Shown here piece by piece: positions 1,963-31,923 of a DNA stretch of 64,000 nt. Location of the stretch: NCBI RefSeq assembly GCF_032598905.1, contig NZ_CP122458.1, positions 248,001 to 312,000 of the forward strand, in the 5' to 3' direction. The DNA comes from Streptomyces sp. 11x1. GTDB taxonomy: Bacteria; Actinomycetota; Actinomycetes; Streptomycetales; Streptomycetaceae. The notes beneath the pieces were generated by a model. It did no database searches, had not been told where the DNA came from, and saw nothing but the letters and a program-made list of their open reading frames with translations. Positions within the stretch are counted from its first letter, which is position 1. Each line of letters begins with the position of its first letter. The translations under genes and the position numbers were made by a program.

Positions 1963-3230
1963 AGAAGGCTCCTTTCCGGGCTGGCGAGCACCATGGCGCT
2001 CTGGAAGCCGCCGAAGCCGCTGCCGACCGTCAGGACGGCGTCGACGAGCTGGTCGCGGGCGACGACGGGCACGTAGTCGAGGTCGCACTCGGGGTCGGCG
2101 TGGTGGAGGTTCGCGGTCGGCGGGACCACGTCGTACTCCATGGCCAGCGCGGAGGCGGCGATCTCGATGGAGCCGATCGCGCCGAGGGAGTGGCCCACCA
2201 TCGACTTGATGGAGCTGACCGGGGTGCGGTAGGCGTGCTCGCCCAGGCTGCGCTTGAACGCGGCGGTCTCGTGCCGGTCGTTCTGCTTGGTGCCCGAGCC
2301 GTGGGCGTTGACGTAGTCGATCGCCTCCGGGTTGAGCCGTGCCTCGGCGAGGGCGAGGTCGATGGCCTCGGCCATCTCCTTGCCGTCCGGGCGCAGGCCC
2401 GTCATGTGGTAGGCGTTGGAGCGGGTGGCGTAGCCGGCGATCTCGGCGTAGATGTGCGCCCCGCGTTCCTTGGCGCTCTCCAGCTCCTCCAGGACGAAGA
2501 ACGCGGCGCCCTCGCCGAGGACGAACCCGTTGCGGGTCCTGTCGAAGGGCCGGGAGGCGCACTCCGGTTCGTCGTGCCGGGGTGTGGTGGCCTTGATCGC
2601 GTCGAAGCAGGCCATGGTGATCGGTGAGATCGGCGCGTCGGAGGAGCCGGCGATCACGACGTCGGCGGAGCCCTCGCGGACCAGCTCGACGGCGTAGCCG
2701 ACGGAGTCGATGCCGGAGGTGCAGCCGGTGGAGACCACCGTGGAGGGGCCCTCGGCGCCGACGGCCCAGGCGACCTCGCAGGCGAAGGAGCTGGGCACCA
2801 TGTAGTCGTAGAGCTGCGGCACCGCGTAGGTGTGGTCCAGCACGTCGAGGCGGCCGCCGTCGCTGACGACCCGGTACTCCTGGTCCAGGCCCATGGTGGC
2901 GCCGACGGCGCTGCCGACGGTGACGCCGACGCGGTGGGGCTCCAGCGCGGCCAGGTCGATGCCGCTGTCGGCGACCGCGCCGCGCGAGGCGACGACGGCG
3001 AACTGCGCGGCCCTATCCAGGCGGCGGACCTCCTGCGGGCTCAGGCCGTGCTCGTAGGGGGCGAAGTCGGCCTCGGCGGCCACCCGGGAACGGAAGGGGG
3101 AGGGGTCGAAGAAGGTGATGCCGCGGGTGGCGGTACGGCCGCTGCTGAGCAGCTGCCAGAAGTTCTCCCTGCCCACACCGCCGGGGGCGATCACCTCGAT
3201 GCCGGTGATGACAACGCGACGCCGGCTCAC
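1959..3230 (-). CDS. Ketosynthase alpha (KSalpha) of minimal PKS 1
   Basis: 423-residue beta-ketoacyl synthase catalysing the decarboxylative condensations of the polyketide chain. The catalytic triad is visible: Cys170 in STGCTSG, His in NAHGSGT and His in SMVGHSLGA. The start is a GTG at 3230 overlapping the stop of the upstream cyclase gene (GTGA), so no ATG is needed. The 3' end overlaps the CLF start by ATGA. The order cyclase, KSalpha, CLF, ACP, KR is classical for aromatic polyketide operons. It differs clearly in sequence from the second KSalpha at 15741-17024, so the two are not a recent duplication. Confidence 0.96.
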
Positions 3231-3556
3231 GCGGACGCCTCCCAGTGGTAGAAGCGGGTGGCCATCGCATCGGCCGGGGAGCGCCAGGTGGCGGGGTCGT
3301 AGGCCTCGATGAAGGGCTTGAGGTCGGCGCTGATCCGCACGAAGCGCGCATCCTGCTTGGCGGCCTCGATCAGCTCGCCGCCGTTGTCCTCGTCGAAGTC
3401 CTGCAGGTGGAAGTACAGGCCCCGGTAGGAGAACAGCTGGCGGCGCCGCGTTCCCATGCGGTGGGGCATCTCGGTCCGGTCGAACTCGGCGAACAGCCGG
3501 GCCACGTCGGTGCTCGAGGTGGCTGTCATCCGGGCGACAATGAGCGTGCTGTGCAT
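3227..3556 (-). CDS. TcmI-family polyketide cyclase
   Basis: 109-residue protein of the TcmI/polyketide_cyc family (dimeric ferredoxin-like alpha-beta barrel) that closes a ring of the poly-beta-ketone. Diagnostic residues are [20 protein letters not shown] at residues 34-53 and [19 protein letters not shown] near 70-90. Length equals the family norm. The ATG at 3556 lies 274 bp after the ABM gene; its stop overlaps the KSalpha GTG start. The preceding 3557-3830 interval is the longest gap in this operon and shows no gene, so it could hold an internal promoter. Which ring it closes cannot be read from sequence. Confidence 0.9.
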
Positions 3557-3830
3557 AGGTTTGGCTCCTCGGCGTGTGCGTGGAGGGGTTCGCTTCGTTC
3601 GGCCGGCTCGGGCGCCGGGTTCTCACGACGCCTCGACAGTGCGGCCCGGCGGTAGCGCCCGGCCCGCGCAGCGCCGGAGTCCGGCCGGAGCCGCCATCCG
3701 CCGGCCCGGGCGTGGTGGTGCGGGCGCGGGCATGCGTACGCCTCCGGAGCGGGCGGCACACCGTGGGCGGCCGGCGGGTGTCCGGAGGCGTGCGGCAGGG
3801 CCGGCGCGTCGCTTGGAGGACGCGCCGGGT

Positions 3831-14469: not shown

Positions 14470-15744
14470 TCAGGCGTGGGGCGCTTTGAGGACGGCTGCG
14501 GCGTTGAAGCCGCCGCGGCCGCGGGCGAGGACCAGGGCGGTGCGCAGGCCGGGCCGGGGGCGGGGGTGGTCGACGACGAGGTCGAGGGGGCAGTCGGGGG
14601 CGAGGGGGCCGGTGCCGGTGGTGGGCGGGATGACCTGGTCGCGCAGGGCGAGCAGGGCGGCTGCCAGGTCCAGGGAGGAGCCTCCGGCGGCCAGGCGGCC
14701 GGTCATCGTCTTGGGCACGGTGACGGGTACCCCGTGGGGCCCGAACAGTGCGCACAGCACGGCGCTCTCGGCGAGGTCGCCGGCCCGTTCGCCCGCGCCG
14801 TCGGCGAAGACCACGTCGATGTCCGCCGGCGTGAGCCTTGCGTCGGTGAGGGCGAGTTGGGCGGCTTCGCGCAGCCGGGGTGTGTCGGGGCCGTCGAAGG
14901 TGGCGGCGCAGCCGGCGACGATGCCGTAGCCGGTGGCGCCGCGGGCGGCGGCGGCTTCGGCGTCCTCCAGGACGAGCAGGGCTCCGCCCTCCCCCACCAG
15001 GTGGCCGTCGGCGGCGGCGTTGAAGGGCCGGTAGGCGCGCAGCGGGTCGGCGGTGCGGCTCATGCGGCCGTCGGCCAGGTGGGCTGCCCAGCCCCACGGG
15101 CACAGGGTGGAGTCGACGCCGCCGGTGACCATCAGCTGGGCGCCGTCGCGGATGCGGCGCCGGGCGCGGGCGAGGGCGTCGATGCCGCCGGCCTGTTCGC
15201 TGATGATGGTGGAGCCGGTGCCGCGCAGCTGGTGGCGGATGGCGATCTGTCCGGGGCCGGCGCCGTGGAAGAAGCCGGAGGCCTGGTAGACGCTGACGCT
15301 GCGGGCGCCTGTGTCCCACAGGGCGGCCAGCCCGCGCTGGCCGAACTCGGTGCCGCCCGCGGAGCTGGCGGTGATCACGCCGGCCGTGTGGCCGGGCAGG
15401 CTCTCGGGGTCGGCGCCGCAGTCCTGGAGGGCTTCTTGGGCCGCGCAGAGCATCAGGCGGGTGGCGCGGTCGGTCTCGGGCAGCAGTCTGCTGGGGACGT
15501 GGTCGGTGTCGGCGAAGTCGCGGATCTCGCCGGCCAGGCGTACCGGGTAGCGGGTGGCGTCGAAGCGGGTCAGCGCTTTGATGCCGCTGCGGCCGGCCAG
15601 CAGGGCCTGCCACCAGGCGTTGGTGCCCAGTCCGTTGGGGGCGGTGACGCCGATGCCGGTGACCAGGACGCCGGCGGCGGGGTCCGGGCCGGGCCGGGTG
15701 GGGGCTGCGGCCGGGCCGGCCGGGGGGGGCTGGCGCATCGTCAC
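14470..15744 (-). CDS. Chain-length factor (KSbeta) of minimal PKS 2
   Basis: 424 residues from the GTG at 15744, which overlaps the KSalpha stop as GTGA; the ATG at 15738 two codons later is an alternative. A Pro/Ala-rich N-terminal extension of about 22 residues precedes VLVTGIGVTAPNGLG. The active-site cysteine is replaced by the usual CLF glutamine in SEQAGGID (about residue 184). [20 protein letters not shown] marks the C-terminal half. It is clearly divergent from the first CLF, suggesting a different chain length. It ends the TE-KS-CLF operon. Confidence 0.94.
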   Translation of the reverse strand: MTMRQPPPAGPAAAPTRPGPDPAAGVLVTGIGVTAPNGLGTNAWWQALLAGRSGIKALTRFDATRYPVRLAGEIRDFADTDHVPSRLLPETDRATRLMLCAAQEALQDCGADPESLPGHTAGVITASSAGGTEFGQRGLAALWDTGARSVSVYQASGFFHGAGPGQIAIRHQLRGTGSTIISEQAGGIDALARARRRIRDGAQLMVTGGVDSTLCPWGWAAHLADGRMSRTADPLRAYRPFNAAADGHLVGEGGALLVLEDAEAAAARGATGYGIVAGCAATFDGPDTPRLREAAQLALTDARLTPADIDVVFADGAGERAGDLAESAVLCALFGPHGVPVTVPKTMTGRLAAGGSSLDLAAALLALRDQVIPPTTGTGPLAPDCPLDLVVDHPRPRPGLRTALVLARGRGGFNAAAVLKAPHA

Positions 15745-17024
15745 ACCGCCTGCTTCAGCTGCGGCTGGGTCAGGACGGTGGCGCTGTGGAAGCCGCCGAA
15801 GCCGCTGGCGACGCTGAGGACCGTGCTGGTGCGCATCTGGCGTGCGATCAGCGGGGTGTAGTCGAGGTCGCAGGTCGGGTCCGGTTGGCGCAGGTTGGCC
15901 GTGGGCGGCACGGTGTCGTGCTGGATGGCCAGCGCGCTGGCCGCCACGTCCAGGGCGCCGGCGGCGCCGAGGGCGTGTCCGATCATCGACTTGATGGAGC
16001 TGATGGGGATGGAGCGGGCGTGGTCGCCCAGGCCGGCTTTGATGGCGTGGGTCTCGTGGCGGTCGTTGGGCCGGGTGCCGGCGCCGTGGGCGTTGACGTA
16101 CTCGACGTCGACCGGGTTGAGGCGGGCCTCGTCCAGGGCGGCCCGGATGGCGGCGGCCATCTCCTGTCCGCCCGGGCGCAGTCCGGTCATGTGGTGGGCG
16201 CTGCTCAGGGCCGCGTACCCGGACAGTTCGGCGTAGGCGCGGGCGCCGCGGCGGCGGGCGTGTTCGAGTTCTTCCAGGACGAGGACGGCGGCGCCCTCGC
16301 CGAGGACGAATCCGTCGCGGGTGCGGTCGAAGGGGCGGCACGCGGTGGTCGGGTCGTCGTTGCGGGGGCTGGTGAGCCGCATACGGTCGAAGCAGGCCAT
16401 GGTGATCGGGGAGATGGGTGCTTCCGCGCCGCCGGCGACGACGATGTCGGCGCTGCCCTCGCGGATCAGGTCGGCGCCGTGCCCGATGGCGTCCAGGCCG
16501 GAGGTGCAGCCGCTGGAGATGAGGCCCACCGGGCCCTGGGCGCCGATGTCGCGGGCGACGACGGCCGCCAGCGAGCTGGGGACGACGTAGTCGTAGAGGA
16601 AGGCGCCGGCCCTGGTGTGGTCCACCGTCCAGGTGCTGCCGAAGTCGCTGAGGATGGCGTACTGGGTGGCCATGGCGGTGGTGCAGCCGATCGCGCTGCC
16701 CAGGCTCACCCCGGTGCGCAGCGCCCGGGTCTCCGCGCGGGTGTCGGTGGCGTCGTCGAGGCCGCTGTCGGCGATCGCCTCGCGTGCGCTGACCAGCGCG
16801 AACTGGGCGACGCGGTCGAGGCGTTCGGTGTCGGCGAGGGTGAAGCCGTGGGCGGCGGGGTCGAAGTCGACCTCGGCGGCGACCTGGGAGCGGTAGCCGG
16901 AGGCGTCGAAGAGGGTGATGCCGCGGGTGGCGGTGCGCCCGGAGGTGAGCAGGGACCAGAAGCCGGCGGCGCCCACCGCGCTGGGGGCGATGACCCCGAT
17001 GCCTGTGATGACGACGCGTTTCAT
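15741..17024 (-). CDS. Ketosynthase alpha (KSalpha) of minimal PKS 2
   Basis: 427-residue condensing enzyme with the complete triad: Cys173 in SSGCTSG, His in NAHGAGT and His in SMIGHALGA. The ATG at 17024 overlaps the thioesterase stop (ATGA), and its own stop overlaps the CLF start. No second ACP, KR or cyclase accompanies this pair. It could make a short primer or side chain or a second polyketide, using the ACP at 428-697 or one outside the window. Identity as KSalpha is secure; the product is inferred only. Confidence 0.95.
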   Translation of the reverse strand: MKRVVITGIGVIAPSAVGAAGFWSLLTSGRTATRGITLFDASGYRSQVAAEVDFDPAAHGFTLADTERLDRVAQFALVSAREAIADSGLDDATDTRAETRALRTGVSLGSAIGCTTAMATQYAILSDFGSTWTVDHTRAGAFLYDYVVPSSLAAVVARDIGAQGPVGLISSGCTSGLDAIGHGADLIREGSADIVVAGGAEAPISPITMACFDRMRLTSPRNDDPTTACRPFDRTRDGFVLGEGAAVLVLEELEHARRRGARAYAELSGYAALSSAHHMTGLRPGGQEMAAAIRAALDEARLNPVDVEYVNAHGAGTRPNDRHETHAIKAGLGDHARSIPISSIKSMIGHALGAAGALDVAASALAIQHDTVPPTANLRQPDPTCDLDYTPLIARQMRTSTVLSVASGFGGFHSATVLTQPQLKQAV

Positions 17025-17803
17025 CGCTGTCCCCTCGTCGCCGGTGCGGCCAGGCGGTCGCGGCAGGCGCGTGCGACCAGGTGCGGCAGGTCGGGGGAAT
17101 CGGCGAAGAAGTGGTCGCCGGTGACGGTGTGGCTGACGATGGGGCCGGTGGTCCAGCGCTGCCAGTGGGTGAGTGTTGCGGGTTCGGTCAGCGGGTCGTC
17201 GCTGCCGGCGAAGACCAGCACGGGGCAGGTGACGGGGCCGCCGGTGGCGGGGTGGAGGGCGGCGGCGCGCAGGGAGGCGGCCAGGCGCAGGTCGTCGCGC
17301 AGCACGGGCAGGACGCTGCGCCGCCACAGCCCGCCCGGGGAGGCGGAGGTTCCGCTGGGCAGGGAGCCGAGGTTCTCCAGCAGGGGCAGCAGGTCGGCAT
17401 CGGGCAGGTCGGCGGCGCCGACCAGGGCGGTGCTGGTGTGCGGGGGCGGGCAGGCGCCGACGGCGAGGAGCAGCGGCGGCGGGGCCCCGGCGTCGGCCAG
17501 GGCCCGGGTGAGGGTGTAGGCGACGAGGGCGCCCAGGCTGTGCCCGTACAGTGCGTAGGGGCCCAGGCGGGCCGCGGTCAGCAGGGGGGGCAGCAGGTCG
17601 GCCAGGAGGGCGGCGCGGTCGGTGATGCGCGGCTCTCGCCGGCGGTTCTCGCGGCCGGGCAGCGGCAGGGGCGTGACGTCGAGGGTGGTGCCGGCCGCTG
17701 TGGGCCAGCGCCGGTAGCTGGCCACTCCCGCGCCGGCGTGGGCGAGGCAGTAGAGCCTGACCCGCCCCTCGCCCGCCCCGTCGTCTCGCGTCCGGGAAGC
17801 CAT
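17021..17803 (-). CDS. Type II thioesterase
   Basis: 260-residue alpha/beta hydrolase that removes misprimed or finished acyl groups from carrier proteins. Visible marks: LYCLAHAGAGVASYRRWP at residue 18 (oxyanion region), LYGHSLGALVAY with the nucleophile Ser near residue 98, the Asp in FAGSDDPLTEP and the His in GDHFF near 235. ATG at 17803 is the first gene of the TE-KS-CLF operon, all coupled by overlaps. Placement with the second KS/CLF pair suggests editing or release of that chain. Confidence 0.92.
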   Translation of the reverse strand: MASRTRDDGAGEGRVRLYCLAHAGAGVASYRRWPTAAGTTLDVTPLPLPGRENRRREPRITDRAALLADLLPPLLTAARLGPYALYGHSLGALVAYTLTRALADAGAPPPLLLAVGACPPPHTSTALVGAADLPDADLLPLLENLGSLPSGTSASPGGLWRRSVLPVLRDDLRLAASLRAAALHPATGGPVTCPVLVFAGSDDPLTEPATLTHWQRWTTGPIVSHTVTGDHFFADSPDLPHLVARACRDRLAAPATRGQR

Positions 17804-18117: not shown

Positions 18118-18939
18118 TCAGGCGGCGTACAGGTCGAAGGTGGAGGTGCGCCGGGGGCCGGAGAGGATGTCCAGGTGCGGGTCCACGGCGAGCATCGCCT
18201 GGTGCATGCGCTGCAGTTGGGGGGAGGGCTCCACGCCGAGTTCGTCGATGAGGCGCTGGCGCAGCCGGCGGTAGAGGTCCAGCGCGGCGGCCTGCCGGCC
18301 GGAGCGGTAGAGCGCCAGCATGGCCTGTGAGTGCAGCCCTTCGTGCTGGGGGTGACGGGCGATGAGGTGGGTGAGTTCGGCGATGAGTTCGACGTGCCGG
18401 CCGAGTCGGAGGTCGGCGTCGATGCGGCGTTCCTGGGCGACCAGGCGGCTCTGGTCCAGGCGCATGACCTCGATCTCGAGGATGGGTCCGACGCGGACGT
18501 CGACGAGGGCGGGGCCGTCCCACAGCTGCAGTGCCTGGCGCAGGAGGGTGGCGGAGCGTTCGTCCTGGCCGTCCTCGAAGGCCTGCCGGCCTTCGGCGAG
18601 AAGCCGCTCGTAGCGGTAGACGTCGACGGACTCGGCCGGTATCTGCAGCAGGTAGCCGCCGTAGCGGGTGGCCAGGACGTCCTTGGCGGTGCCCGGGGCG
18701 CCGGGGCCCATGGCGGTGCCGAGCATGCGGCGCAGCTGGAGGATGTACGTCTGGAGCGTGGTGAGCGAGCTCTGCGGCAGGTTGGTGCCCCAGATCTCCT
18801 CCATGAGGGTGGGCACGGGCACGACCCGGCCCGGGTAGAGCGCCAGCAGGGCCAGGATCTGGCGGGGCTTGCCCGCGGTGGGAACGATCGACATTCCATT
18901 GACGTCGGCGTTCAACGTGCCCAGAACTTTTATCTCCAT
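18118..18939 (-). CDS. SARP-family pathway activator 1
   Basis: 273 residues: an OmpR-type winged-helix DNA-binding domain (residues 1-95, MEIKVLGTLNADVNG, then PRQILALLALYPGRVVPV and ELW-like EEIWGTNLPQSSLTTLQTYI) followed by the bacterial transcriptional activation domain (residues 100-255, DVYRYERLLAEGRQAFEDG to DLYRRLRQRLIDELGVEPS). Small SARPs of this size activate antibiotic operons by binding heptamer repeats near -35. It is transcribed toward the TE-KS-CLF operon. No TTA codon was noticed. Confidence 0.94.
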   Translation of the reverse strand: MEIKVLGTLNADVNGMSIVPTAGKPRQILALLALYPGRVVPVPTLMEEIWGTNLPQSSLTTLQTYILQLRRMLGTAMGPGAPGTAKDVLATRYGGYLLQIPAESVDVYRYERLLAEGRQAFEDGQDERSATLLRQALQLWDGPALVDVRVGPILEIEVMRLDQSRLVAQERRIDADLRLGRHVELIAELTHLIARHPQHEGLHSQAMLALYRSGRQAAALDLYRRLRQRLIDELGVEPSPQLQRMHQAMLAVDPHLDILSGPRRTSTFDLYAA

Positions 18940-19684: not shown

Positions 19685-20845
19685 ATGGAATTTCAGGTTC
19701 TTGGTTCGGTCCAGGTCCACGACGAGCGCTCCGGTGTCCTCGTCGTGCCCACGGGCGCGAAGCAGCGTGCGCTGCTGGGCACCCTGGTGGTGCGGGCCGG
19801 CCATCTGGTGCCCACCGGGCTCCTCGTCGACGAGCTGTGGGGCGAGCACCCGCCGGCGAATGCGGCCAATGCCCTGCAGGCCCATGTGGGCCGGCTGCGG
19901 CGGCTGCTGCCGGGGGCGGTGCCGGGCTCGGGCGAGCGGCATCACCCGTTCCTGGTGACCCGTCCGCTGGGCTATGTGCTCAGTCTGGGCCGCGCCGAGA
20001 CGGACGTGCGGCGCTTTCGCCGTCTGGCGCAGCAGGGGCGGGCGCTGGCCGGCACCGATCCCGCCGGCGCGGCCGAGGTGCTGCGCCGGGGCCTGGCACT
20101 GTGGCGCGGCCCGGCCCTGCAGGGCAGCGGGCGCGGCGCGGTCTGCTCGGCCGAGGCGGCGCTGCTGGAGGAGATGCGGCTGACCGCTCTGGAGCGGCTG
20201 TACGAGGCGGAGGTGCGCACGGGGCGCGGCCAGGAGATCACCGGCGAGCTGGAGGAGCTGACGGCCGCTCACCCGCTGCGGGAACGCTTCTACGAGCTGC
20301 TGATGAGCGCGCTGCACCGCTGCGGCCGGCAGGCGGAAGCACTGGGCACCTACGACCGGGCCCGCCGCGCTCTCGTGCACGACCTGGGCATCGAACCGGG
20401 CCCGGCGCTGCGCGGCTGTCTGCAGACGATCCTGCGCCAGGACCCCTGGTCCCCTCCCCCGGCCCCGGCCCCGTCTGCGGCCCACATCCCCGCGGCGGCG
20501 CCCGCTCCCGGGGCGGGAGCGCCCGGCACCGCTCCGGCGCCGGCACCACCACCGGCGGCGGCCGCGCCTGCGGGGGGCGGGCATCCGGCGGCCGGGCATC
20601 CGGGGGGCGACGTGCTCGGCGTACGGGCGTTGTACGAGGAGCTGCTCCGGCTGCGCGGCCACGTCGAGCGCCTGAGCCGTGAACAGCGGGCTCTGGCCGA
20701 GCGCCTGGACCAGGCGGACGGGGACCGCATGGACGGGGACCGCCCGGACCGGGTGGACCGCATGGCACGGGCCGGCCGCGTGGACGGGGCGGACCGCGTG
20801 GAGGGGGTCACCCGTGTGGAGGGGGCGCGGGCGGTGGGCCGTTAG
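19685..20845 (+). CDS. SARP-family activator 2 with proline-rich and coiled-coil tail
   Basis: 386 residues. Residues 1-95 form the winged helix (MEFQVLGSVQVHDERSG, RALLGTLVVRAGHLVPTG, VDELWGEHPPANAANALQAH) and 100-250 the activation domain (DVRRFRRLAQQGRAL to LVHDLGIEPGPALRG). Unlike the other two SARPs it carries about 130 extra residues: a Pro/Ala linker, a heptad-rich coiled coil (LRGHVERLSREQRALAERL) and a repetitive Asp/Arg/Val tail. The tail may mediate oligomerisation. It is transcribed away from SARP 1 and convergent with SARP 3. Confidence 0.9.
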   Translation: MEFQVLGSVQVHDERSGVLVVPTGAKQRALLGTLVVRAGHLVPTGLLVDELWGEHPPANAANALQAHVGRLRRLLPGAVPGSGERHHPFLVTRPLGYVLSLGRAETDVRRFRRLAQQGRALAGTDPAGAAEVLRRGLALWRGPALQGSGRGAVCSAEAALLEEMRLTALERLYEAEVRTGRGQEITGELEELTAAHPLRERFYELLMSALHRCGRQAEALGTYDRARRALVHDLGIEPGPALRGCLQTILRQDPWSPPPAPAPSAAHIPAAAPAPGAGAPGTAPAPAPPPAAAAPAGGGHPAAGHPGGDVLGVRALYEELLRLRGHVERLSREQRALAERLDQADGDRMDGDRPDRVDRMARAGRVDGADRVEGVTRVEGARAVGR

Positions 20846-21494: not shown

Positions 21495-22334
21495 TCAGCG
21501 GCCTGCCAGTTCGGGGCCGCGGGTCATCAGGCGGGCTCCGGCGGCGCCGGCGGGGGCGGGCGATTCGGGGCGGGCCATGAGGACCGAGCGCTGGAGGCGG
21601 CTGAGCGCTGTGGAGGGTTCCAGGCCCAGCTCGGCCACGAGGGTGGCGCGCAGCCGCTGGTAGACGCTCAGTGCCTCGCCGCGCCGGCCGGAGCGGTGCA
21701 GCGCCAGCATGAACTGGCCGTGCAGGCTCTCGTGCATGCGGTACTGCTTGACCAGGACCGTCAGTTCGGACAGCAGCTCCCGGTGGCGGCCCAGCCGCAG
21801 GTCGGCCTCGATGCGCTGGTCCAGCGCGCACAGCCGCGACTCCTCCAGGCGCCGGATCTCCATGTCGATCCGGCCGCCGGCCTGGATGTCGGTGAGCACC
21901 TGGCCGTTCCACAGCGAGAGCGCGTCGGCCAGACGGCGCGCGGCCGCGGTGTAGTCCTCGGCGTCCATGGCCCGGTAGCCCGCGCCCGCGCGCCGCTCGA
22001 ACTCGCGGAAGTCCACCGTGCCGCCGCGGCTCTCCAGGCGGTAGCCGCCGGGGACGGTGGTGAGGACGTCCTTGGCGGTGCAGCGTTCGTTCGCGTCGTG
22101 CGCCAGCGCCCCGGCCATCAGCTCGCGCAGCTGCAGCACGTACGTCTGCAGTGTGGTGCGCGCGCTGCGCGGGGGGTTCTCGCCCCACAGTTCCTCGATG
22201 AGCGTGGCCACGGAGACCACCTGGTCGGCGTTGAGCGCGAGGAGGGCGAGGACCTGCCGCGGCTTGGGCGCCGTAGGGACGACCGACACTCCGTTCTCGC
22301 GCACCGACAGCGCACCCAGCACTTCGATGTCCAC
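21495..22334 (-). CDS. SARP-family activator 3
   Basis: 279 residues with the winged helix (MDIEVLGALSVRENG, RQVLALLALNADQVV, EELWGENPPRSARTTLQTYV) and activation domain (DFREFERRAGAGYRAMDAED to SVYQRLRATLVAELGLEPS), plus a short Ala/Gly tail. It resembles SARP 1 more than SARP 2. Its upstream DNA contains the half-site CGGTTTGT also present in the ARE-like palindrome at 24878-24899, which suggests control by a gamma-butyrolactone-receptor homologue. No TTA codon was noticed. Confidence 0.93.
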   Translation of the reverse strand: MDIEVLGALSVRENGVSVVPTAPKPRQVLALLALNADQVVSVATLIEELWGENPPRSARTTLQTYVLQLRELMAGALAHDANERCTAKDVLTTVPGGYRLESRGGTVDFREFERRAGAGYRAMDAEDYTAAARRLADALSLWNGQVLTDIQAGGRIDMEIRRLEESRLCALDQRIEADLRLGRHRELLSELTVLVKQYRMHESLHGQFMLALHRSGRRGEALSVYQRLRATLVAELGLEPSTALSRLQRSVLMARPESPAPAGAAGARLMTRGPELAGR

Positions 22335-22618
22335 GTTCTCCCCCTGGAGTCAGGCTTCAGGACCGATGCATCTCGACCCGTGACTCCATAAAAAAACAGC
22401 ACAGTCGGTTTGTCAATACCAGACTCGCTTTACTGTTTATGACGATCATCCAGCCACACCCGAGGAAACGATCACGCCACGGAGGGTGATCCGGCACCGG
22501 ACCCGCCGCGAAAACATGCCCTACAGGGGCATTTCAGCCGCGGGAGATCGCAGTGGTTGCCCTTTGAATCAGACTGCCGAGACCATTGAAGGGCAAATAA
22601 AAAGACTGTGTCGTCGGA
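22335..22618. promoter_or_regulatory. SARP 3 promoter region with ARE-like half-site
   Basis: 284 bp between SARP 3 and the TetR gene, the most AT-rich stretch nearby. CGGTTTGT at 22406-22413 equals one arm of the palindrome at 24878-24899. A second inverted repeat, TTGCCCTT at 22557-22564 with AAGGGCAA at 22589-22596, lies just after the TetR stop and may end that transcript. Confidence 0.45.
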
Positions 22619-23227
22619 TTAGTGGGTGCCGTGGGGCTTCAGGGCGGGGAGCAGTTCCCTGGTGGCCAGCGTGGGCAGCAGCAGCTCCCAGAACCTGGCG
22701 ATGGTCTGGCGGGAGAGCCAGTCGCCGTCGCGCCTGGCGAGCACCTCGAATCCCGCGGTCGTGGCCACCACGGCGGTGGCCACGGCCAGGGTGGAGACGT
22801 CCGTGCGCAGTTCACCGGTGCCGGCGGCGCGTTCGAGCAGGTGCTCGACCCAGTCCTGCCAGTGCCCGCAGACGTCGGTGGGCCTCTCGCGGCCGGCGTC
22901 CCGGCCGAGTTCGAACCCCGCGCGCAGCACGACGTCGGCACGCAGCTGGCGCGCGAGCTGGTGGGTGGTGTCCACGAGGTTCTGCAGGCTGCCGCCGGCA
23001 GGGGGCTGAGCCACGATGTCGCGCAGGCGCAGGGCGGCCGCGTCCGCGACTGCTTGCGCCAGCGCGGTCTTGCTGGCGAAGTGGAAGTGCAGGGCGCCGT
23101 TGCTCACCCCGGCCCGCGCGCTGATGGTGGTGAGCGAGGCGAGCGCGTATCCCTCCCGGTCGAAGACCTCGGCCGCGGATCTGATCAGCTTCTGCCTGGT
23201 GCGTGCCGCCCTTTCCTGTTTGACCAT
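22619..23227 (-). CDS. TetR regulator, gamma-butyrolactone-receptor-like (ArpA/ScbR family)
   Basis: 202 residues. The N-terminal helix-turn-helix (RTRQKLIRSAAEVFDREGYA then ISARAGVSNGALHFHFASK) is characteristic of ArpA/ScbR-type autoregulator receptors and pseudo-receptors. The C-terminal ligand domain includes RAGFELGRDAG, WQDWVEHLLERA and WLSRQTIARFWE. It starts 11 bp after the carboxylase beta gene stop, so it is the last gene of that operon. The ARE-like palindrome upstream of the beta gene would make it autoregulatory. Whether it binds the local autoregulator or is a pseudo-receptor is unknown. Confidence 0.9.
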   Translation of the reverse strand: MVKQERAARTRQKLIRSAAEVFDREGYALASLTTISARAGVSNGALHFHFASKTALAQAVADAAALRLRDIVAQPPAGGSLQNLVDTTHQLARQLRADVVLRAGFELGRDAGRERPTDVCGHWQDWVEHLLERAAGTGELRTDVSTLAVATAVVATTAGFEVLARRDGDWLSRQTIARFWELLLPTLATRELLPALKPHGTH

Positions 23228-23238
23228 CGCGTGCTCCG

Positions 23239-24831
23239 TTACTGAGGGGGGTTGCCGTGCTTGCGCGAGGGGAGGTCCGCGTGCTTGGTGCGGAGCACGG
23301 TCAGGGAACTGATCAGCACCTGGCGGGTCCTGGCGGGGTCGATGACGTCATCGACCAGACCGCGCTCGGCCGCGTAGTAGGGGTGCATCAGCTCGGCCTT
23401 GTACTCCTTGACCATGCGCTCGCGCATCGCCTCGGGGTCCTCGGCCTCGGCGATCCGGCGCCGGAAGATGACGTTGGCGGCGCCCTCGGCACCCATGACG
23501 GCGATCTCGTTGGTCGGCCAGGCGTAGCTGAGGTCGGCGCCGATGGACTGGGAGTCCATGACGATATAGGCACCGCCGTAGGCCTTGCGCAGGATCAGCG
23601 AGATCCGGGGCACGGTCGCGTTGCAGTAGGCGTACAGCAGCTTCGCGCCGCGGCGGATGATCCCTTCGTGCTCCTGGTCGACGCCGGGCAGGAAGCCGGG
23701 CACGTCCAGCAGCGTGATGACCGGGATGTTGAAGGCGTCGCACATCTGCACGAACCGTGCGGCCTTCTCGCTGGCCTCGATGTCGAGGACGCCCGCCAGG
23801 GACTGCGGCTGGCTGGCGACGATGCCGACGACCTGGCCGCCGAGGCGGGCGAGGGCGCAGATGATGTTGCGGGCCCAGCGCTCGTGGACCTCCAGGAAGT
23901 CGCCGTCGTCGACGATCTCCGCGATGACCTCGCTCATGTCGTAGGGCCGGTTGCCGTCGGCCGGGACCAGCTCCACCAGCGCGGGCGAGGTCCGGGTCTG
24001 CGGATCGGTGCACGGCGTGCACGGGGGGAACTCGCGGTTGTTCTGCGGGAGCATCGACAGCAGGTAGCGCACCTCGGCGATGCAGGTCTCCTCGTCGTCG
24101 TAGGCGAAGTGCGCCACCCCGGAGGTCTCGGCGTGCACGTCCGCGCCGCCCAGGCCGTTGTGGGTGATCTCCTCGCCGGTGACCGCCTTGACGACGTCCG
24201 GGCCGGTGATGAACATCTGCGAGGTCCCGCGGACCATGAACACGAAGTCCGTCAGGGCGGGACTGTAGGCCGCGCCGCCCGCGCACGGGCCGAGCATCAC
24301 ACTGATCTGCGGGATGACACCCGAGGCCCGGGCGTTGCGCTGGAAGATGCCGCCGTAGCCCGCCAGCGCCGAGACACCCTCCTGGATCCGCGCGCCCGCA
24401 CCGTCGTTGAGCGAGACCAGCGGCGCACCGGCCGCGATGGCCATGTCCATGATCTTGTGGATCTTCGCGGCGTGGGCCTCGCCCAGCGCCCCGCCGAAGA
24501 TCCTGAAGTCATGGGCGTAGACGAAGACCGTACGGCCCTCCACCGTGCCCCAGCCGGTGATCACACCGTCGGTGTACGGCTTCCTGGCCTCCAGACCGAA
24601 CCCGGTGGCCCGGTGCCGGCGCAGCTGCTCGACCTCGCTGAACGAACCCGCATCCAGCAGCAGCCCGATGCGCTCGCGGGCGGTCAGCTTGCCCTTGGCA
24701 TGCTGCGCCTCGGTCGCCTTCCCGCCGGGGCCGGCCAGCGCCTCGGCCCGCACCATCTGCAGCTCGGCCACCCGCTCGCGCGCGCTCGCCGCGTCCGCAA
24801 AAGCCCGGGGAATGTCATTGAGGACCGTCAT
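23239..24831 (-). CDS. Acyl-CoA carboxylase beta (carboxyltransferase) subunit
   Basis: 530 residues from the ATG at 24831 with AGGGAG upstream. It transfers CO2 from biotin to acetyl- or propionyl-CoA to give malonyl/methylmalonyl-CoA extender. Marks are GKLTARERIGLLLDAGSF, the N-oxyanion region LNDGAGARIQEGV, GPCAGGAAYSPALTDF and the C-lobe LLDVPGFLPGVDQEHEGIIR plus KAYGGAYIVM. Inside a type II PKS cluster it most likely boosts malonyl-CoA. Substrate choice depends on one residue that I did not try to assign. The biotinylated alpha subunit is absent, presumably shared. Confidence 0.94.
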   Translation of the reverse strand: MTVLNDIPRAFADAASARERVAELQMVRAEALAGPGGKATEAQHAKGKLTARERIGLLLDAGSFSEVEQLRRHRATGFGLEARKPYTDGVITGWGTVEGRTVFVYAHDFRIFGGALGEAHAAKIHKIMDMAIAAGAPLVSLNDGAGARIQEGVSALAGYGGIFQRNARASGVIPQISVMLGPCAGGAAYSPALTDFVFMVRGTSQMFITGPDVVKAVTGEEITHNGLGGADVHAETSGVAHFAYDDEETCIAEVRYLLSMLPQNNREFPPCTPCTDPQTRTSPALVELVPADGNRPYDMSEVIAEIVDDGDFLEVHERWARNIICALARLGGQVVGIVASQPQSLAGVLDIEASEKAARFVQMCDAFNIPVITLLDVPGFLPGVDQEHEGIIRRGAKLLYAYCNATVPRISLILRKAYGGAYIVMDSQSIGADLSYAWPTNEIAVMGAEGAANVIFRRRIAEAEDPEAMRERMVKEYKAELMHPYYAAERGLVDDVIDPARTRQVLISSLTVLRTKHADLPSRKHGNPPQ

Positions 24832-24877: not shown

Positions 24878-24899
24878 ACAAACCGTAAGGACGGTTTGT
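24878..24899. promoter_or_regulatory. ARE-like palindromic operator
   Basis: Perfect 9-bp inverted repeat: ACAAACCGT (24878-24886), spacer AAGG, ACGGTTTGT (24891-24899). It lies 47 bp upstream of the carboxylase beta gene that is followed by the TetR gene. The half-site fits autoregulatory elements bound by gamma-butyrolactone-receptor homologues. Most likely an operator for the TetR at 22619-23227. Confidence 0.7.
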
Positions 24900-24940: not shown

Positions 24941-25135
24941 TCACTGCCAGCTGTACGGAGAGCGGTAGCCCCCTCGCGCCTGCCCGGGGCGCCACAGCGG
25001 GGACTCGGCCTGCCCGGAGTCGGCCTCCGGGCCCGGCGCGGACAGCAGCACCGTCAACACGACGGTGACCGCGGCCAGTTCCTCTGGTGTGGCCCGGCCC
25101 CGCTCCACTCGAAGTACGGCGTCCGTGCTGCTCAT
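24941..25135 (-). CDS. Acyl-CoA carboxylase epsilon subunit
   Basis: 64-residue accessory subunit that stabilises the actinobacterial carboxylase beta-alpha complex. The N-terminal VLRVERGRATPEELAAVTVV and the C-terminal WRPGQARGGYRSPYSWQ match the epsilon family (RG.PT.EELAA...W). ATG at 25135. It precedes the beta gene by about 110 bp; the usual order in Streptomyces is beta then epsilon, so the arrangement is reversed here. The palindromic operator lies between the two genes. Confidence 0.85.
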   Translation of the reverse strand: MSSTDAVLRVERGRATPEELAAVTVVLTVLLSAPGPEADSGQAESPLWRPGQARGGYRSPYSWQ

Positions 25136-26955: not shown

Positions 26956-28185
26956 TCAGGAGCCGAGGAGCACCGGCAGCGAGCGGTGACCGTGGAGCAT
27001 GAAGGTGGGCATCGGCTGCAGCTCGTCCGGCGGGCAGGCCAGGGACAGATCCGGGAAACGCCCGAAGAGTTCGGCGAAGGCGACGCCGGCCTCGATCTCG
27101 GCGAGCGGGGCCCCCAGGCACCGGTGCGTTCCGTGGCCGAAGCCGAGGTGCCCGCCGCGCCGGGTGCGCAGCACATCGAAGCGCGCGGCGTCGGGCCCGT
27201 GGCGTTCGGGCTCCAGGCCTGCCCCGTGGAAGGCGACGATGATGGCATCGCCCTGCTTGATCAGCACCCCGTCCAGGTCGATGTCCTGGACCGCGTACCT
27301 CAGGGGGGCGAACGCCGGGGGTGTGTGGACCCGCATGGTCTCCTCGATCACGTCGCTCCAGCCGGCGCGGCCGGCGCGTACGTGCTCCAGCTGCTCGGGG
27401 TGGGTCAGCAGCGCGGCGACCGCGTTGGTGATCAGGACCGCGGTGGTGTCCTGCCCCGCGGCGATCATCATGAACAGCGTGCCGAGCAGTTCCTCCTCGG
27501 ACAGACGGTCCTCCTTGTCCCGGGCCTCGATCAGCGCGGTGGTCAGATCGTCACCGGGCTCCCTGCGCCTGGTCCTGACCAGCCCGGCGAGCAGCTCGTA
27601 GGCGCGCAGACGCGCGGCGCTCACCTCACCGGCCCCCAGGGTGCTGCAGAAAACCGTGCTCAGGGCCGCGCTCAGCTCGTCGGTCGCGCTCCCCCGGGGC
27701 ACCCCGTACAGCTCGCAGATGACCCGCAGCGGCAGCAGGTCCGCGTAGCAGGTGCGCAGGTCGACCTCCGTCGCGGGCGGTGTGCGGGCCAGGCCGTCCA
27801 GGAGCTCGCGGGCGATCCGGCGGACCTTGGGACGCTGCGCCTGCGAGCGCCGCGCGGTGAACGCCCCGGCGATCAGCCGGCGCAGCCGGGCATGGTCCTG
27901 CCCGTAGGAGAAGAGCATGTTCTCGTTGGCCACCCACGGATACAGCGGCCACTCCTGGGTGATCTTCCCTTCGATGAACGCCGGCCAGTGCCTGCGCGGG
28001 TCACGCGAGACACGGTCGTCGGTCAGCAGCCGCTCGACGTGCTCCTGCCCGACCACCGACCAGGCCAGGACCCCGCCCGGCAGCTCCACCCGCACCGCGG
28101 GTCCCCGCCGGCGCAGCGCCGCCGCCTCCGCGGCGAGGTCCTGCCCCGTTATGTCCAGGGCATGAGGACAGGCAGTCGTTTTCAT
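26956..28185 (-). CDS. Cytochrome P450 (candidate butenolide-autoregulator P450)
   Basis: 409-residue class I P450. The I-helix oxygen-binding motif is AAGQDTTAV, the K-helix ExxR is EETMR, and the haem loop is FGHGTHRCLG with the Cys ligand at about 356. ATG at 28185 after a GGGGGGAA ribosome-binding site. It lies beside a gamma-butyrolactone-receptor-like TetR gene and an acyl-CoA oxidase-like gene, the same trio as cyp17/avaR/aco of the avenolide system. It may hydroxylate an acyl precursor of a signalling butenolide; alternatively it tailors the polyketide. The first role is favoured by position, not by sequence alone. Confidence 0.9.
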   Translation of the reverse strand: MKTTACPHALDITGQDLAAEAAALRRRGPAVRVELPGGVLAWSVVGQEHVERLLTDDRVSRDPRRHWPAFIEGKITQEWPLYPWVANENMLFSYGQDHARLRRLIAGAFTARRSQAQRPKVRRIARELLDGLARTPPATEVDLRTCYADLLPLRVICELYGVPRGSATDELSAALSTVFCSTLGAGEVSAARLRAYELLAGLVRTRRREPGDDLTTALIEARDKEDRLSEEELLGTLFMMIAAGQDTTAVLITNAVAALLTHPEQLEHVRAGRAGWSDVIEETMRVHTPPAFAPLRYAVQDIDLDGVLIKQGDAIIVAFHGAGLEPERHGPDAARFDVLRTRRGGHLGFGHGTHRCLGAPLAEIEAGVAFAELFGRFPDLSLACPPDELQPMPTFMLHGHRSLPVLLGS

Positions 28186-28218
28186 CGGCGTTCCCCCCAA
28201 TGGGCTCGGTCCCCTGAT

Positions 28219-28784
28219 GCGGTGCGACGTATCCATGCGACGTATCCGTGCGGGATGTCCGTGCGGCGTGTCCGTGCGAGGTATCCGTGCGAGCTGTCCG
28301 TCTATCCGCGCGGCGTGTCCGTGCGAGGCGTCCGTGCGGCGTGTCCGTACGAGGTATCCGTGCGAGCTGTCCGTCTATCCGCGCGGCGTGTCCGTGCGAG
28401 GCGTCCGTGCGGCGTGTCCGTACGAGGTATCCGTGCGAGCTGTCCGTCTATCCGTGCGGGATGACCGTGCGGCGTGTCCGTGCGAGCTGTCCGTCTATCC
28501 GCGCGAGGTATCCGTGCGGCGTGTCCGTGCGGGATGTCCGTGCGGCGTGTCCGTGCGAGCTGTCCGCACAAGCTATCCGTGCGGGAGTCCGTGCAAGCTG
28601 TCCGTGCGAGGTATCCGTGCGGCGCGTCCGTGCGGGATGTCCGTGCGAGCTGTCCGTCTATCCGTGCGGGATGACCGTGCGGCGTGTCCGTGCGAGCTGT
28701 CCGCACAAGCTATCCGTGCGGGAGTCCGTGCAAGCTGTCCGTGCGAGGTATCCGTGCGAGGTATCCGTGCGGCGTGTCCGTGCG
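28219..28784. repeat. 13-bp degenerate tandem array with higher-order duplications
   Basis: More than 40 head-to-tail units of about 13 bp of the form TCCGTGCGRSSTR (for example TCCGTGCGGCGTG, TCCGTGCGAGCTG, TCCGTGCGAGGTA), interrupted by 8-bp units TCCGTCTA. Blocks of about 70 bp are duplicated, near 28306/28379 and, with CACAAGCTATCCGTGCGGG, near 28567/28703. Because 13 is not a multiple of 3 and no stop occurs, several frames stay open, which is not evidence of coding. It fills the spacer between the P450 start and the TetR gene. Confidence 0.95.
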
Positions 28785-28853
28785 CGCCGCGGGCCGCCGG
28801 CCGGGTCGCGGGCCGCCGGCGGCCGGCCGAGCCGCGGCCCGGGAGCGGCGCTG

Positions 28854-29534
28854 TCAGTCGAGGGCCAGGGCTTCGGCCTCCTGACGCAGGCGCATCGCCT
28901 GTTCGTAGACGCGGGCGCCGCGGTCCGGCGCCATGTCGAGCTGCAGGAGCACGGCCGGAACCGCGATGCTCGCCATCAGATGCCGCTCCACGGAGGCCAC
29001 ACGCTGCGGCAGGTCGGCATGGCCCGTCATGATCTTCGACAGGATCTGGGCCCCGGTGAAGGCCGCCACGAACACCCGCGCGGCGTCCTGGACATCGGTA
29101 TGGGGCAGCACCTCCCCCTTGGCCTTGGCCCGGCCCAGCAGCTCCACATTGTGCTCGATCCAGCCCGCCATCGGGATCTGCCGGTTCAGACCGTCCTGCG
29201 GGTACCCCTGCTCGACCGTGAGCCTGATACTGCCGCGCACCAGCGGATCACCCACGCTCAGCATGTGGGCGAGCAGGAACGTGGCATCCAGGCCCTCCTG
29301 CAGGACCAGCTCCTGCGAAGGCGGCCGCGGCACCGAGCTGAGCTGATCGGCCAGCACCTCCTGCGCCAGCTCCTCCTTGGAGGAGAAATGGAAGTACAAC
29401 GCCCCCTTGGTGACCTTGGCACGCTGGTGGATCTCCGAGATCGTCGCCGCCTCGTACCCCACTTCCGCGAAGACCGCGGCGGCGGCGGCCACGATCGACC
29501 GGCGTGTTCTGATCGCACGTTCCTGCAACGCCAT
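28854..29534 (-). CDS. TetR regulator, butenolide/gamma-butyrolactone receptor-like (AvaR type)
   Basis: 226 residues. The DNA-binding domain reads RTRRSIVAAAAAVFAEVGYEAATISEIHQRAKVTKGALYFHFSSKEELA, the classic autoregulator-receptor helix-turn-helix, followed by a ligand domain with RLTVEQGYP and WIEHNVELLGRAKAKGEVLP. It is divergent from the acyl-CoA oxidase-like gene, and ARE-like sites lie 32 bp upstream of its ATG and before the oxidase gene. By analogy with avaR1 beside aco, it probably represses both genes and possibly the SARPs until the autoregulator appears. Confidence 0.92.
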   Translation of the reverse strand: MALQERAIRTRRSIVAAAAAVFAEVGYEAATISEIHQRAKVTKGALYFHFSSKEELAQEVLADQLSSVPRPPSQELVLQEGLDATFLLAHMLSVGDPLVRGSIRLTVEQGYPQDGLNRQIPMAGWIEHNVELLGRAKAKGEVLPHTDVQDAARVFVAAFTGAQILSKIMTGHADLPQRVASVERHLMASIAVPAVLLQLDMAPDRGARVYEQAMRLRQEAEALALD

Positions 29535-29565
29535 GCCCCACCTCCGCTAACGGAAACACACCCTC

Positions 29566-29588
29566 AAAAAAACCGGCAGGTTCGTATT
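29566..29588. promoter_or_regulatory. ARE-like site upstream of the TetR receptor gene
   Basis: Contains AAACCGGCAGGTTCGTAT (29570-29587), 32 bp before the receptor start codon. It matches the site at 29844-29861 at 15 of 18 positions. The AACC/GGTT half-sites are ARE-like, so it is probably the receptor's own operator. Confidence 0.68.
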
Positions 29589-29841
29589 CTCCCACCGCCC
29601 GGAGCAAGGATCAAGGGAGCCGCGACCTGCCCGAAATATGGCCATAGGCCAATCTTTCGAGCCCACGCCACCAAAAGAAACCCCGGCGATGGTTTCTCTC
29701 CATCTCCCCCTCACCCCGGTGAGGTGGGACATAGCGGACCTCTCCCCCGCCTGAACCGGGCATTCCGTTCTGGATGCGGGCAGGGATCCGCCGGGAGATC
29801 CGTAGCGGACCGGTCACGCTTTGCATTTCTTTGACTTGTTA

Positions 29842-29864
29842 GAAAACCGGTAGGTCAGTATCTT
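29842..29864. promoter_or_regulatory. ARE-like site in the acyl-CoA oxidase promoter
   Basis: Contains AAACCGGTAGGTCAGTAT (29844-29861). It follows a -35-like TTGACT at 29831-29836 and covers the expected -10 zone, so receptor binding should block transcription of the oxidase gene starting at 29919. Confidence 0.68.
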
Positions 29865-29918
29865 CTTGGCTCATCGCACGCCAGCCTTCCGGATTCCGAG
29901 ACAACGGGGGAGAGGGCC

Positions 29919-31835
29919 ATGGTCCTTCTGACAGCCCAGCCCGAGGAAGACTCCACAGCGTCCAGCAGCACCGCCGCCCCGCCGCAGACACCCGCCGGCC
30001 AGGGCATGCGCCCGGCCGGGGAGCCGGCGCCGGGCGGCTTCGCGCCACCGGCCGCCACGACCGCCGGGGAACTGACCCGCCTGCTCTTCGACCGGCACGG
30101 CGAGCGCGACCTCGTCCACACCCCCTGGCGCCGGCTCATCGCGGACGAAACGTTTCGCCACCGCCCGGGCCTGTCCCCCGCCGAACAGGTCGAGCAGTCC
30201 TACCAGCGCCTGCGCCTGGTCAACGACACCGTGGACGACGCCGAACGCCTCGCCCGCGACCCGGCCCTGCTGGCGAGCCTGCACGAATGGGGCGCGATCG
30301 TGGACGGCGGCGGAGGCCTGTGCACCCTCGCCAGCATCCACTACAACCTCTTCCTCGGCAGCCTCCTGGACCACGCCAAAAGCGCCCGGCGCGACCTGTC
30401 ACCGTTCACCTCCATGCAGCGCACCGGCACCTTCCTGTGCACCGAACTCGACCACGGCAACGACAGCTTCGCCCTTAAGACCACCGCCGAACTCGACCCC
30501 GCCACCAACGAGTTCATCCTGAACACCCCCCACCCCGGCGCCCAGAAATTCATGCCCAACACCAGCACCACCGGCGGCCCCAAGACCGCCGTGGTCGCCG
30601 CCCGCCTCATCACCGCCGGCCACGACCACGGCGTCTTCCTCTTCCTCACCCCCTTAAGCGACGAGACCGGCCTGCTCCCCGGCATCACAGTCCACCGCCT
30701 GCCCCTGCGCCCCGGCGCCCCCGTCGACCACTGCCTGACCTCCTTCACCAACGTCCGCCTGCCCCGCCAGGCCCTGCTGGAAGCCGAACACGGACACCTC
30801 GACGACAACGGCACCCTCCACAGCACCCTGGGCAACCACCGCAAACGCTTCCTGCGCTCCATCAGCCGCGTCACCACCGGCAAACTCTGCATGAGCGCCG
30901 CAGCCGTGGGAGCCTCCCGCGCCGCCCTCGCCCTCGCCGTCCGCTACGGCCAAAACCGCCACGTCAGCGGCCCCAAACCCGGCCAGCGCATCCCCGTCAA
31001 CACCTACCGCACCCACCACAGCAGACTCCTCGACGCACTCGCCACCGCCTACGGCATGACCCTCTGGCACCGCACCCTGACCACCCGCTTCACCCACCCC
31101 ACCGACCCCGACCCCACCGGCACCGAACGCGAAATAGCCATCGCCAAAGCCTGGATCACCTGGCAGGCCCGCACCATCGTCGCCGAAAGCCGCGAACGAT
31201 GCGGCGCCCACGCACTCTTCACCGCCAACGGCATGGCCGGCTTCCCCGACTACATCGAAGGCACCATCACCGCCGAAGGAGACAACCTCGTCATCTGGAC
31301 AAAAGCCGCCGCCGAACTCATCTTCCACACACCACCAAAACCCCCCACCCCACCCACCCCACCCACCGGCCCCGACCAGCTCAACGACACCCGCCACCTC
31401 CGCAACCTCCTCTCCCACACCACCACCATCTGGCAGACCCGAGCCCGCACCGCCCTACGCCAAGGACCCCCCAACGACCCCATCGCCCGCTGGAACACCG
31501 CCTCCCGCCCCGCCCTCCAGATGACCACCACCCACGCCGCCCTCCACACCGCCGACGCCTACCTCCACACACTCGACCACACCACACACCCCCACACCCA
31601 CACCCTCCTCAACCACCTCTGCCGCCTCTTCCTCCTCAACCAACTCACCCCCCACACCGGCGACCTCCTCGCCCACCACCACATCAACACCCAACAAATC
31701 CACACCCTCCCCACCCTCCACGACACCACCACCGCACACCTCCAACCCCACATCACCACCCTCACCCACGCCTTCGACCTCCCCCACCCCTACCTCACCG
31801 CCATACCCACCACCCCCACCCACACCCCCACCTGA
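29919..31835 (+). CDS. Acyl-CoA oxidase-like flavoprotein (Aco-type, candidate butenolide autoregulator synthase)
   Basis: 638 residues, the size of acyl-CoA oxidases rather than dehydrogenases. A Ser/Ala/Pro-rich N-terminus (1-45) precedes the ACAD/ACOX core: IHYNLFLGSLLDH, QRTGTFLCTELDHGND, NEFILNTPHPGAQKFMPN and GKLCMSAAAVGASRAALALAVRYGQNR, then a helical C-terminal domain. In S. avermitilis, Aco is the key enzyme for avenolide and is also adjacent to a receptor and a P450. Codon 246 (30654-30656) is TTA, implying bldA dependence. ATG has a GGGGGAG ribosome-binding site. The 3' half uses C-ending codons to an extreme degree. Confidence 0.87.
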   Translation: MVLLTAQPEEDSTASSSTAAPPQTPAGQGMRPAGEPAPGGFAPPAATTAGELTRLLFDRHGERDLVHTPWRRLIADETFRHRPGLSPAEQVEQSYQRLRLVNDTVDDAERLARDPALLASLHEWGAIVDGGGGLCTLASIHYNLFLGSLLDHAKSARRDLSPFTSMQRTGTFLCTELDHGNDSFALKTTAELDPATNEFILNTPHPGAQKFMPNTSTTGGPKTAVVAARLITAGHDHGVFLFLTPLSDETGLLPGITVHRLPLRPGAPVDHCLTSFTNVRLPRQALLEAEHGHLDDNGTLHSTLGNHRKRFLRSISRVTTGKLCMSAAAVGASRAALALAVRYGQNRHVSGPKPGQRIPVNTYRTHHSRLLDALATAYGMTLWHRTLTTRFTHPTDPDPTGTEREIAIAKAWITWQARTIVAESRERCGAHALFTANGMAGFPDYIEGTITAEGDNLVIWTKAAAELIFHTPPKPPTPPTPPTGPDQLNDTRHLRNLLSHTTTIWQTRARTALRQGPPNDPIARWNTASRPALQMTTTHAALHTADAYLHTLDHTTHPHTHTLLNHLCRLFLLNQLTPHTGDLLAHHHINTQQIHTLPTLHDTTTAHLQPHITTLTHAFDLPHPYLTAIPTTPTHTPT

Positions 31836-31923
31836 CACCCACACCCTCCACTGCAAGGGGCACTGGCGACCTGGCAGGTCTCGGGCTCCCGCAAGCTTGG
31901 CCTGACCGTCGCCCGCGGAGACG

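Follow-up and report, generated by a model that had tools for sequence, protein, structure and literature searches.

The 64,000-nucleotide window of the Streptomyces sp. 11x1 genome analysed here (248-312 kb of a 10.54-Mb contig, in a genome of 10.67 Mb on two contigs) carries, beside a type II polyketide cluster, three genes related to those of the avenolide butenolide hormone locus of S. avermitilis. These are a cytochrome P450 of the Cyp17 type (P0001, 26956..28236, minus strand, 426 aa, Pfam p450, with its start likely at Met18, position 28185), a TetR-type butenolide receptor/repressor of the AvaR1 kind (P0002, 28854..29534, minus strand, 226 aa, Pfam TetR_N and TetR_C_45) and, divergent from the receptor gene, aco, encoding an acyl-CoA oxidase and putative butenolide synthase (P0003, 29919..31835, plus strand, 638 aa, Pfam ACOX_C_alpha1 and ACOX). 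All three reading frames are intact and P0003 is the sole PF01756 match in the whole genome. A single TTA codon is present in aco (codon 246), and a codon scan of the receptor, the P450, the three neighbouring SARP (Streptomyces antibiotic regulatory protein) genes and the second TetR gene described below found none in these. As TTA codons confer dependence on bldA, this suggests that aco is bldA-dependent.

An earlier note on this DNA, made from the sequence alone, had recognised in a P450, an AvaR-type receptor and a divergent 638-residue oxidase the composition of the avenolide locus, and had proposed that the three proteins be compared with Aco, Cyp17 and AvaR1 by BLASTP and phylogeny. As Aco reference we used the S. 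avermitilis oxidase P0145, which was retrieved by name with the S. glomeratus aco as query and which, given its species name and tree position, we infer to be Aco itself. The Cyp17 reference, the S. avermitilis P450 P0252, was retrieved in the same way and is probably Cyp17 judging by its tree position. The window oxidase is 63% identical to P0145 over 422 columns (residues 48-469) and 56% identical over the whole multiple alignment, the P450 is 60% identical to P0252 over 406 columns and receptor and AvaR1 share 62% identity (phmmer against 6wp7, E 7e-87). The gene positions, these identities, the trees and the operators described below all bear the recognised composition out.

The earlier note had also stated that the hormone role would fall if the oxidase grouped with catabolic acyl-CoA oxidases (ACOX) or polyketide-tailoring acyl-CoA dehydrogenases. 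In the Aco tree one branch (SH-aLRT, the Shimodaira-Hasegawa-like approximate likelihood ratio test, 100) parts 45 Aco-type sequences, including the window oxidase and P0145, from 14 other actinobacterial ACOX, in a quick method giving SH-aLRT support only, with a composition warning on the window's row and with the catabolic role of the 14 sequences assumed. The oxidase therefore falls with Aco, and an identity as a polyketide-tailoring or other ACOX is not supported by this tree.

From 291 relatives, the 80 best loci with an AvaR1 relative (L001-L080) were retained as the wider set. The receptor gene has aco divergently beside it in 43 of them, 38 of which also have a P450 with at least 50% identity after the receptor; of the remaining five, L003, L039 and L044 stop at a contig edge, and no such P450 is seen in L017 and L019. 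A separate search found both aco and the P450 in all of the 12 best AvaR1-like loci, and a receptor match at E <= 1e-60 occurs in 58 of 392 genomes of the genus. When the 82 rows of the receptor tree are labelled as aco-linked (45), afsA-linked (34) or neither (3), the labels need 3 changes where the minimum possible is 2. One group of 47 rows (support 99) takes in all 45 aco-linked rows plus one that is afsA-linked and one that is unlinked, and outside it lie 33 afsA-linked and 2 unlinked rows. The partner of the window receptor is that of Streptomyces sp. JHA26 (L031; support 99, and 100/99 in a second tree), and the same strain provides the partner of the window P450 (support 100), which groups with the aco-linked homologues. 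Taken as sequence comparisons, these results establish the orthology of oxidase, receptor and P450 to the proteins of the avenolide locus.

An AlphaFold2 model of P0003 built from 38 aligned sequences has a mean pLDDT (predicted local distance difference test) of 85.6 and a pTM (predicted template modelling score) of 0.86, and Foldseek places acyl-CoA oxidases at the top of its matches (5ys9_A, TM 0.77 by query length). E453, the glutamate of the AEGDN motif and the presumed catalytic base of ACOX, is conserved in all 38 aligned sequences. The receptor retains the AvaR1 residues Q64, T108, W127, F161, T162 and Q165, whose roles with respect to the ligand are described in PMC7347384, and so has the coupling residues Q64, T108 and W127 looked for in an AvaR-class receptor. 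T108 is present in 45/45 and T162 in 44/45 of the aco-linked rows vs 11/37 and 2/37 of the other rows.

Candidate operators were sought with the AvaR1 consensus for autoregulatory elements (AREs) from PMC5744401, allowing up to two mismatches. The window contains 19 matches, amounting to 15 distinct sites (four are palindromic and match on both strands), with 6.7 matches expected and 0 of 100 shuffles reaching 19. One site lies at the aco promoter (29844..29861, plus strand) and one at the receptor promoter (29570..29587, plus strand), each with one mismatch and each at an offset equal to that in L031. A third, weaker candidate in the gap between receptor and aco (29678..29695, minus strand) is not among the consensus matches at two mismatches; its offset is 143, compared with 145 for the middle site of L031. 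A further site has perfectly palindromic arms, AAACCGT/ACGGTTT (24880..24897), with no mismatches on the minus strand, and is located about 50 bp upstream of the start (24831) of an acyl-CoA carboxyltransferase gene. Another, with two mismatches (22394..22411, minus strand), occupies the whole 17-bp spacer that separates TTGACA from TTTTAT at the promoter of the gene for the third SARP (SARP3). Operators at these promoters are what a hormone circuit that controls itself and acts on a SARP would be expected to have. Further matches are found at 29753 and 25263 (two mismatches each), at 35506 within mobile-element sequence, and at 31226, 36619, 41461, 43501, 46678, 54768, 56301 and 59479. Genome-wide the pattern AAACCRNNNNNNNSGTWT matches 9 times, at 8 sites, and the window accounts for 4 of these matches, at the 3 sites 24880, 29570 and 29678; the reversed-pattern control gives 0.

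The relatives repeat this arrangement. At least one ARE is present in 43/43 receptor-aco gaps (4.3 expected) and at least two in 35/43 (0.12 expected), the gaps being measured from the oxidase match so that some take in its first codons, and the expectations here and below coming from shuffles that preserve base content only. Among matches in L001-L044 filtered by identity and length, an ARE precedes 7/7 SARP3 orthologues (expected 0.6), 5/7 carboxyltransferases (0.3), 28/32 second-TetR matches (1.6) and 1/3 SARP1 matches (0.2). In the loci where the TetR gene comes directly after the carboxyltransferase (L017, L018, L021, L027 and the window), an ARE precedes the carboxyltransferase and none precedes the TetR gene, which fits the expectation for one operon.

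The earlier note had seen no AfsA-type synthase in the window, and this observation extends to the genome, as a search for the AfsA family (PF03756) found 0 members in the whole genome and one in 21/24 same-genus genomes, which served as its control since the search's own 14 control genomes gave no match. Neither this search nor the receptor tree nor the ligand residues support a system of the AfsA-type gamma-butyrolactone class.

Toward lower coordinates from the P450 lie a MerR/TipAS regulator (25712-26476), an open reading frame (ORF) for an acyl-CoA carboxylase epsilon subunit (24941-25273) and the acyl-CoA carboxyltransferase (23239..24831, minus strand, Carboxyl_trans E 8e-202), first gene of a putative ARE-controlled operon. 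It is followed 11 bp downstream by a second AvaR/CprB-like TetR gene (P0224, TetR2, 22619..23227, minus strand), the product of which has AvaR1 as its best PDB match (E 9e-21) and has relatives of 46-59% identity in aco loci; from its position it would be AvaR2/AvaR3-like. Three SARP genes are indeed present, namely SARP3 with its upstream ARE (21495..22334, minus strand, BTAD and Trans_reg_C), SARP2 (19685..20845, plus strand) and SARP1 (18118..18939, minus strand), as are the two ketosynthases expected by the earlier note, which take the form of two KSalpha/KSbeta pairs: KSbeta2 and KSalpha2 (14470..17030, minus strand, the upper edge being approximate as it derives from the ketosynthase (KS) domain match) and KSbeta1 and KSalpha1 (748..3761, minus strand, given as ORF ends, the true starts being internal). 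Both KSalpha proteins have Cys in a GCTSG motif and find their best match among solved structures in the actinorhodin KSalpha.

The block of aco, receptor, P450, carboxyltransferase, TetR and SARP3 is whole and in the same order in L018 and L027, is present without the P450 in L017 and is reordered in L036 and L042. In L027 (S. cacaoi) it continues to SARP1, a KSalpha gene and the start of a KSbeta gene. The conserved block in those relatives indicates that, at least there, the neighbourhood has been inherited and did not come about by accident. KS genes occur in 2/43 aco loci (L009 and L027), within flanks that span no more than 10 kb and in many cases stop at a contig end; as most aco loci have no polyketide genes in these flanks, association with a type II polyketide synthase (PKS) cluster is not a general rule. 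In PMC10054333 avenolide is named only in the reference list.

Taken together the locus is very probably an avenolide-type (Aco/Cyp17/AvaR) butenolide hormone system placed among the regulatory genes of a type II polyketide cluster, the system itself being of an already known kind. By orthology, Aco and the P450 would make a 4-alkyl butenolide. Without the butenolide, the position and conservation of the operators suggest that a receptor dimer on the AREs would repress aco, its own gene (with the downstream P450), SARP3 and the carboxyltransferase-TetR operon. Accumulating butenolide would then enter the receptor pocket, the receptor would leave the DNA and hormone synthesis would be amplified. 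The SARP, together with malonyl-CoA that the carboxylase would supply, could then turn on aromatic polyketide synthesis, activation of KS genes being a general property of SARPs. The ARE at the SARP promoter suggests, at the level of sequence, that the signal triggers secondary metabolism, while the butenolide as product, the butenolide as ligand and the SARP as driver of the polyketide are each deduced. The earlier proposal that a butenolide hormone controls all three SARPs and the polyketide pathway is thus supported in a weaker form: of the three SARPs only SARP3 has an ARE within two mismatches, and control of SARP1, SARP2 and the polyketide would be conjectural.

The 3' part of aco is the component of this locus that specialists would not expect. 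From about 30350 to 31850 (plus strand) the gene is depleted of G, with a GC skew of about -0.4 deepening to -0.84 and A in excess of T, and the tract ends at about the aco stop codon. By sixths of the gene the coding-strand GC skew runs -0.18, -0.29, -0.38, -0.38, -0.51 and -0.82, the share of G at fourfold sites falls through.33,.23,.14,.03, 0 and 0 in successive 107-codon blocks, and over 900 bp the tract has a GC skew of -0.60 and an AT skew of +0.43. In codons 440-640, all 33 comparable fourfold sites with G in L031 are changed (29 to C, 4 to A) and C is kept at 30/32. Deamination alone is disfavoured as the cause by this spectrum. A scan of 1.588 Mb of the genome, cut into 31,360 windows each 300 bp long, gave no skew beyond |0.6| and a maximum of 0.56. 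Across 1.38 Mb of loci L001-L080, a survey biased by the choice of loci for their receptor relatives, tracts above |0.6| lie in the aco genes of L012, L016 and L019 and in a flank of L017; the L017 aco itself reaches 0.58, and tracts of 0.56 and 0.52 in L011 and L071 lie outside aco.

Fourfold sites in the last 200 codons read hold G in 0/124 cases in the window, 0/122 in L019, 1/122 in L012, 2/122 in L016 and 16/118 in L017, and in 23% or more of cases in the other 38 loci counted. In this count the aco of L006 and L019 is cut by a contig edge so that the codons read are not the gene end, L002 (121/158) was counted with a wrong aco frame end and L021, with a short aco ORF, was omitted. By parsimony on the receptor tree the four loci with less than 10% G need 3 changes, as they do across the 5-95% range of bootstrap trees, and the well-supported branches alone force 2 changes of tract state; it may also be that aco and receptor genes did not always travel together. 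The same enrichment in Thr, His, Asn and Gln is found in P0060, P0010 and P0012-P0015, and P0060 sits elsewhere in the aco tree. In trees of the whole aco and of its C-terminal part the window oxidase sits with other skewed aco genes, a grouping we read as an effect of composition because a tree of residues 45-245 places L031 nearest to the window by path.

Other irregularities were seen around skewed aco genes. In L017 another stretch of strong skew, up to 0.78, adjoins the receptor gene (11151-12450) and extends into the carboxyltransferase gene. L017 and L019 combine a skewed aco with the lack, despite room, of a detectable P450, perhaps by chance. Further skewed aco genes have tandem repeats close to their 5' side (L016:8541-8985 and the N-termini of P0013 and P0060), as if repeats and skew coincide.

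A search for a second copy of the tract in the genome found only itself, with 40 of 269 candidates scored, and among the titles listed from the open-licence literature on skew none names aco. RNA that is rich in C and poor in G near a stop codon also resembles a Rho loading site, and the aco tract is far longer than such a site needs. The recoding does not look like decay, because the frames are open and residues 491-620 are predicted to fold well. It is conceivable, though we hold this only tentatively, that a strand-specific process, mutational or selective, repeatedly targets aco in Streptomyces, removing G and to a lesser extent T from the coding strand with an edge at the stop codon and with the fold kept, and that this amounts to a skew like that of the genetic repeats of intense nucleotide skew (GRINS), arising outside PKS genes with no detectable repeat partner and without the partner for gene conversion on which present explanations of GRINS rely. 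Should this be a process and not an accident, aco would offer a small single-copy gene in which to study the origin of such skew.

Several observations weigh against a hormone locus that works as outlined. BLASTP with the S. avermitilis Aco ends at residue 469, and codons 440-640 of aco are identical to those of L031 at only 107/198. Residue 131 of the receptor is Asn (as in 24/45 aco-linked rows) and not the Thr which in AvaR1 contacts the C10 hydroxyl of avenolide (PMC7347384), so the ligand may differ from avenolide. A minisatellite of about 45 copies of a degenerate 13-bp unit (28222..28784, plus strand), with no second copy found elsewhere in the genome, occupies 563 bp between receptor and P450, where the corresponding gap in L031 is 79 bp (ORF edges), and may uncouple the two genes. 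The aco and SARP3 sites fall outside the pattern AAACCRNNNNNNNSGTWT and differ from the AvaR1 consensus at one and two positions, and no ARE within two mismatches precedes SARP1 or SARP2. Finally, in S. cyaneogriseus ScyR1 bound the scyA1 promoter without regulating scyA1 (PMC7670052), so wiring varies among such systems.

The recoding of the 3' part of aco and the minisatellite, together with the many transposase genes from 34 kb on, could mean that the locus is a decaying relic in which the hormone genes no longer function. We consider this unlikely given the three intact frames, the retained AEGDN motif and the operators; moreover residues 491-620 model at pLDDT 91-98 per ten-residue block, a result the alignment helps, and other lineages also have skewed aco genes with open frames. 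The transposase genes and fragments themselves (IS4/5, Tn3, IS21 and other DDE types) extend downstream of aco over 34237-63575, in a chromosome arm. That the oxidase and the P450 are instead tailoring or starter-unit enzymes of the polyketide, with the receptor a neighbour by accident, might be thought from their place beside an aromatic polyketide cluster that has its own acyl-CoA dehydrogenase-like ORF (10299-13094). This is highly improbable: the oxidase keeps company with the receptor in 43 loci, and the P450 with both in 38, whereas KS genes appear in only two of those 43 within the same short and often truncated flanks, and the trees of oxidase, receptor and P450 and the shared operators point the same way. 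It also seems very unlikely that the receptor is of the gamma-butyrolactone type and eavesdrops on a ligand from elsewhere. The two receptor classes are similar, at about 40% identity (PMC7347384), but this receptor belongs to the aco-linked group with both T108 and T162, and a candidate synthase adjoins it under a matching operator.

The locus offers a short list of things to test for switching on an aromatic polyketide cluster, comprising a single hormone class, a single receptor, a few operators and a single SARP. Two more species have the block complete and others retain part of it, so a single experiment would bear on several clusters.

The closest known counterpart is the avenolide system of S. 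avermitilis, with aco (sav_3706), cyp17 (sav_3704) and avaR1 (PMC5744401). The two share the same three genes at 60-63% protein identity, AREs at the aco and receptor promoters and more AvaR-like genes nearby. They differ in that the target described in S. avermitilis is aveR, the avermectin activator (PMC5744401), whereas the nearest target in the window is a SARP gene of a type II polyketide cluster; the minisatellite between receptor and P450, Asn at residue 131 and the G-depleted aco are likewise peculiar to the window side of the comparison. S. cyaneogriseus has a similar Aco/ArpA-like pair, ScyA1/ScyR1, with a P450 neighbour and with ScyR1 70% identical to AvaR1, but scyA1/scyR1 lie about 310 kb from the nemadectin cluster and are wired differently (PMC7670052). 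Orthologues of the acyl-CoA oxidase and P450 also occur in S. albus J1074 (XNR_2339/2340), where the oxidase is required for activation of secondary metabolism; in contrast, that system is repressed by XNR_3174, and deletion of the AvaR1-like XNR_4681 had no effect (PMC5575351). The aco tract for its part recalls GRINS, described as repeats inside assembly-line PKS genes (PMC10394414, PMC9899208), in that about 1 kb of coding DNA shows intense skew of both GC and TA, exceeding the 25% used to recognise them. It departs from them in that aco is not a PKS gene and that, among the candidates scored, no highly identical second region was found, such a partner within one PKS being a mark of GRINS.

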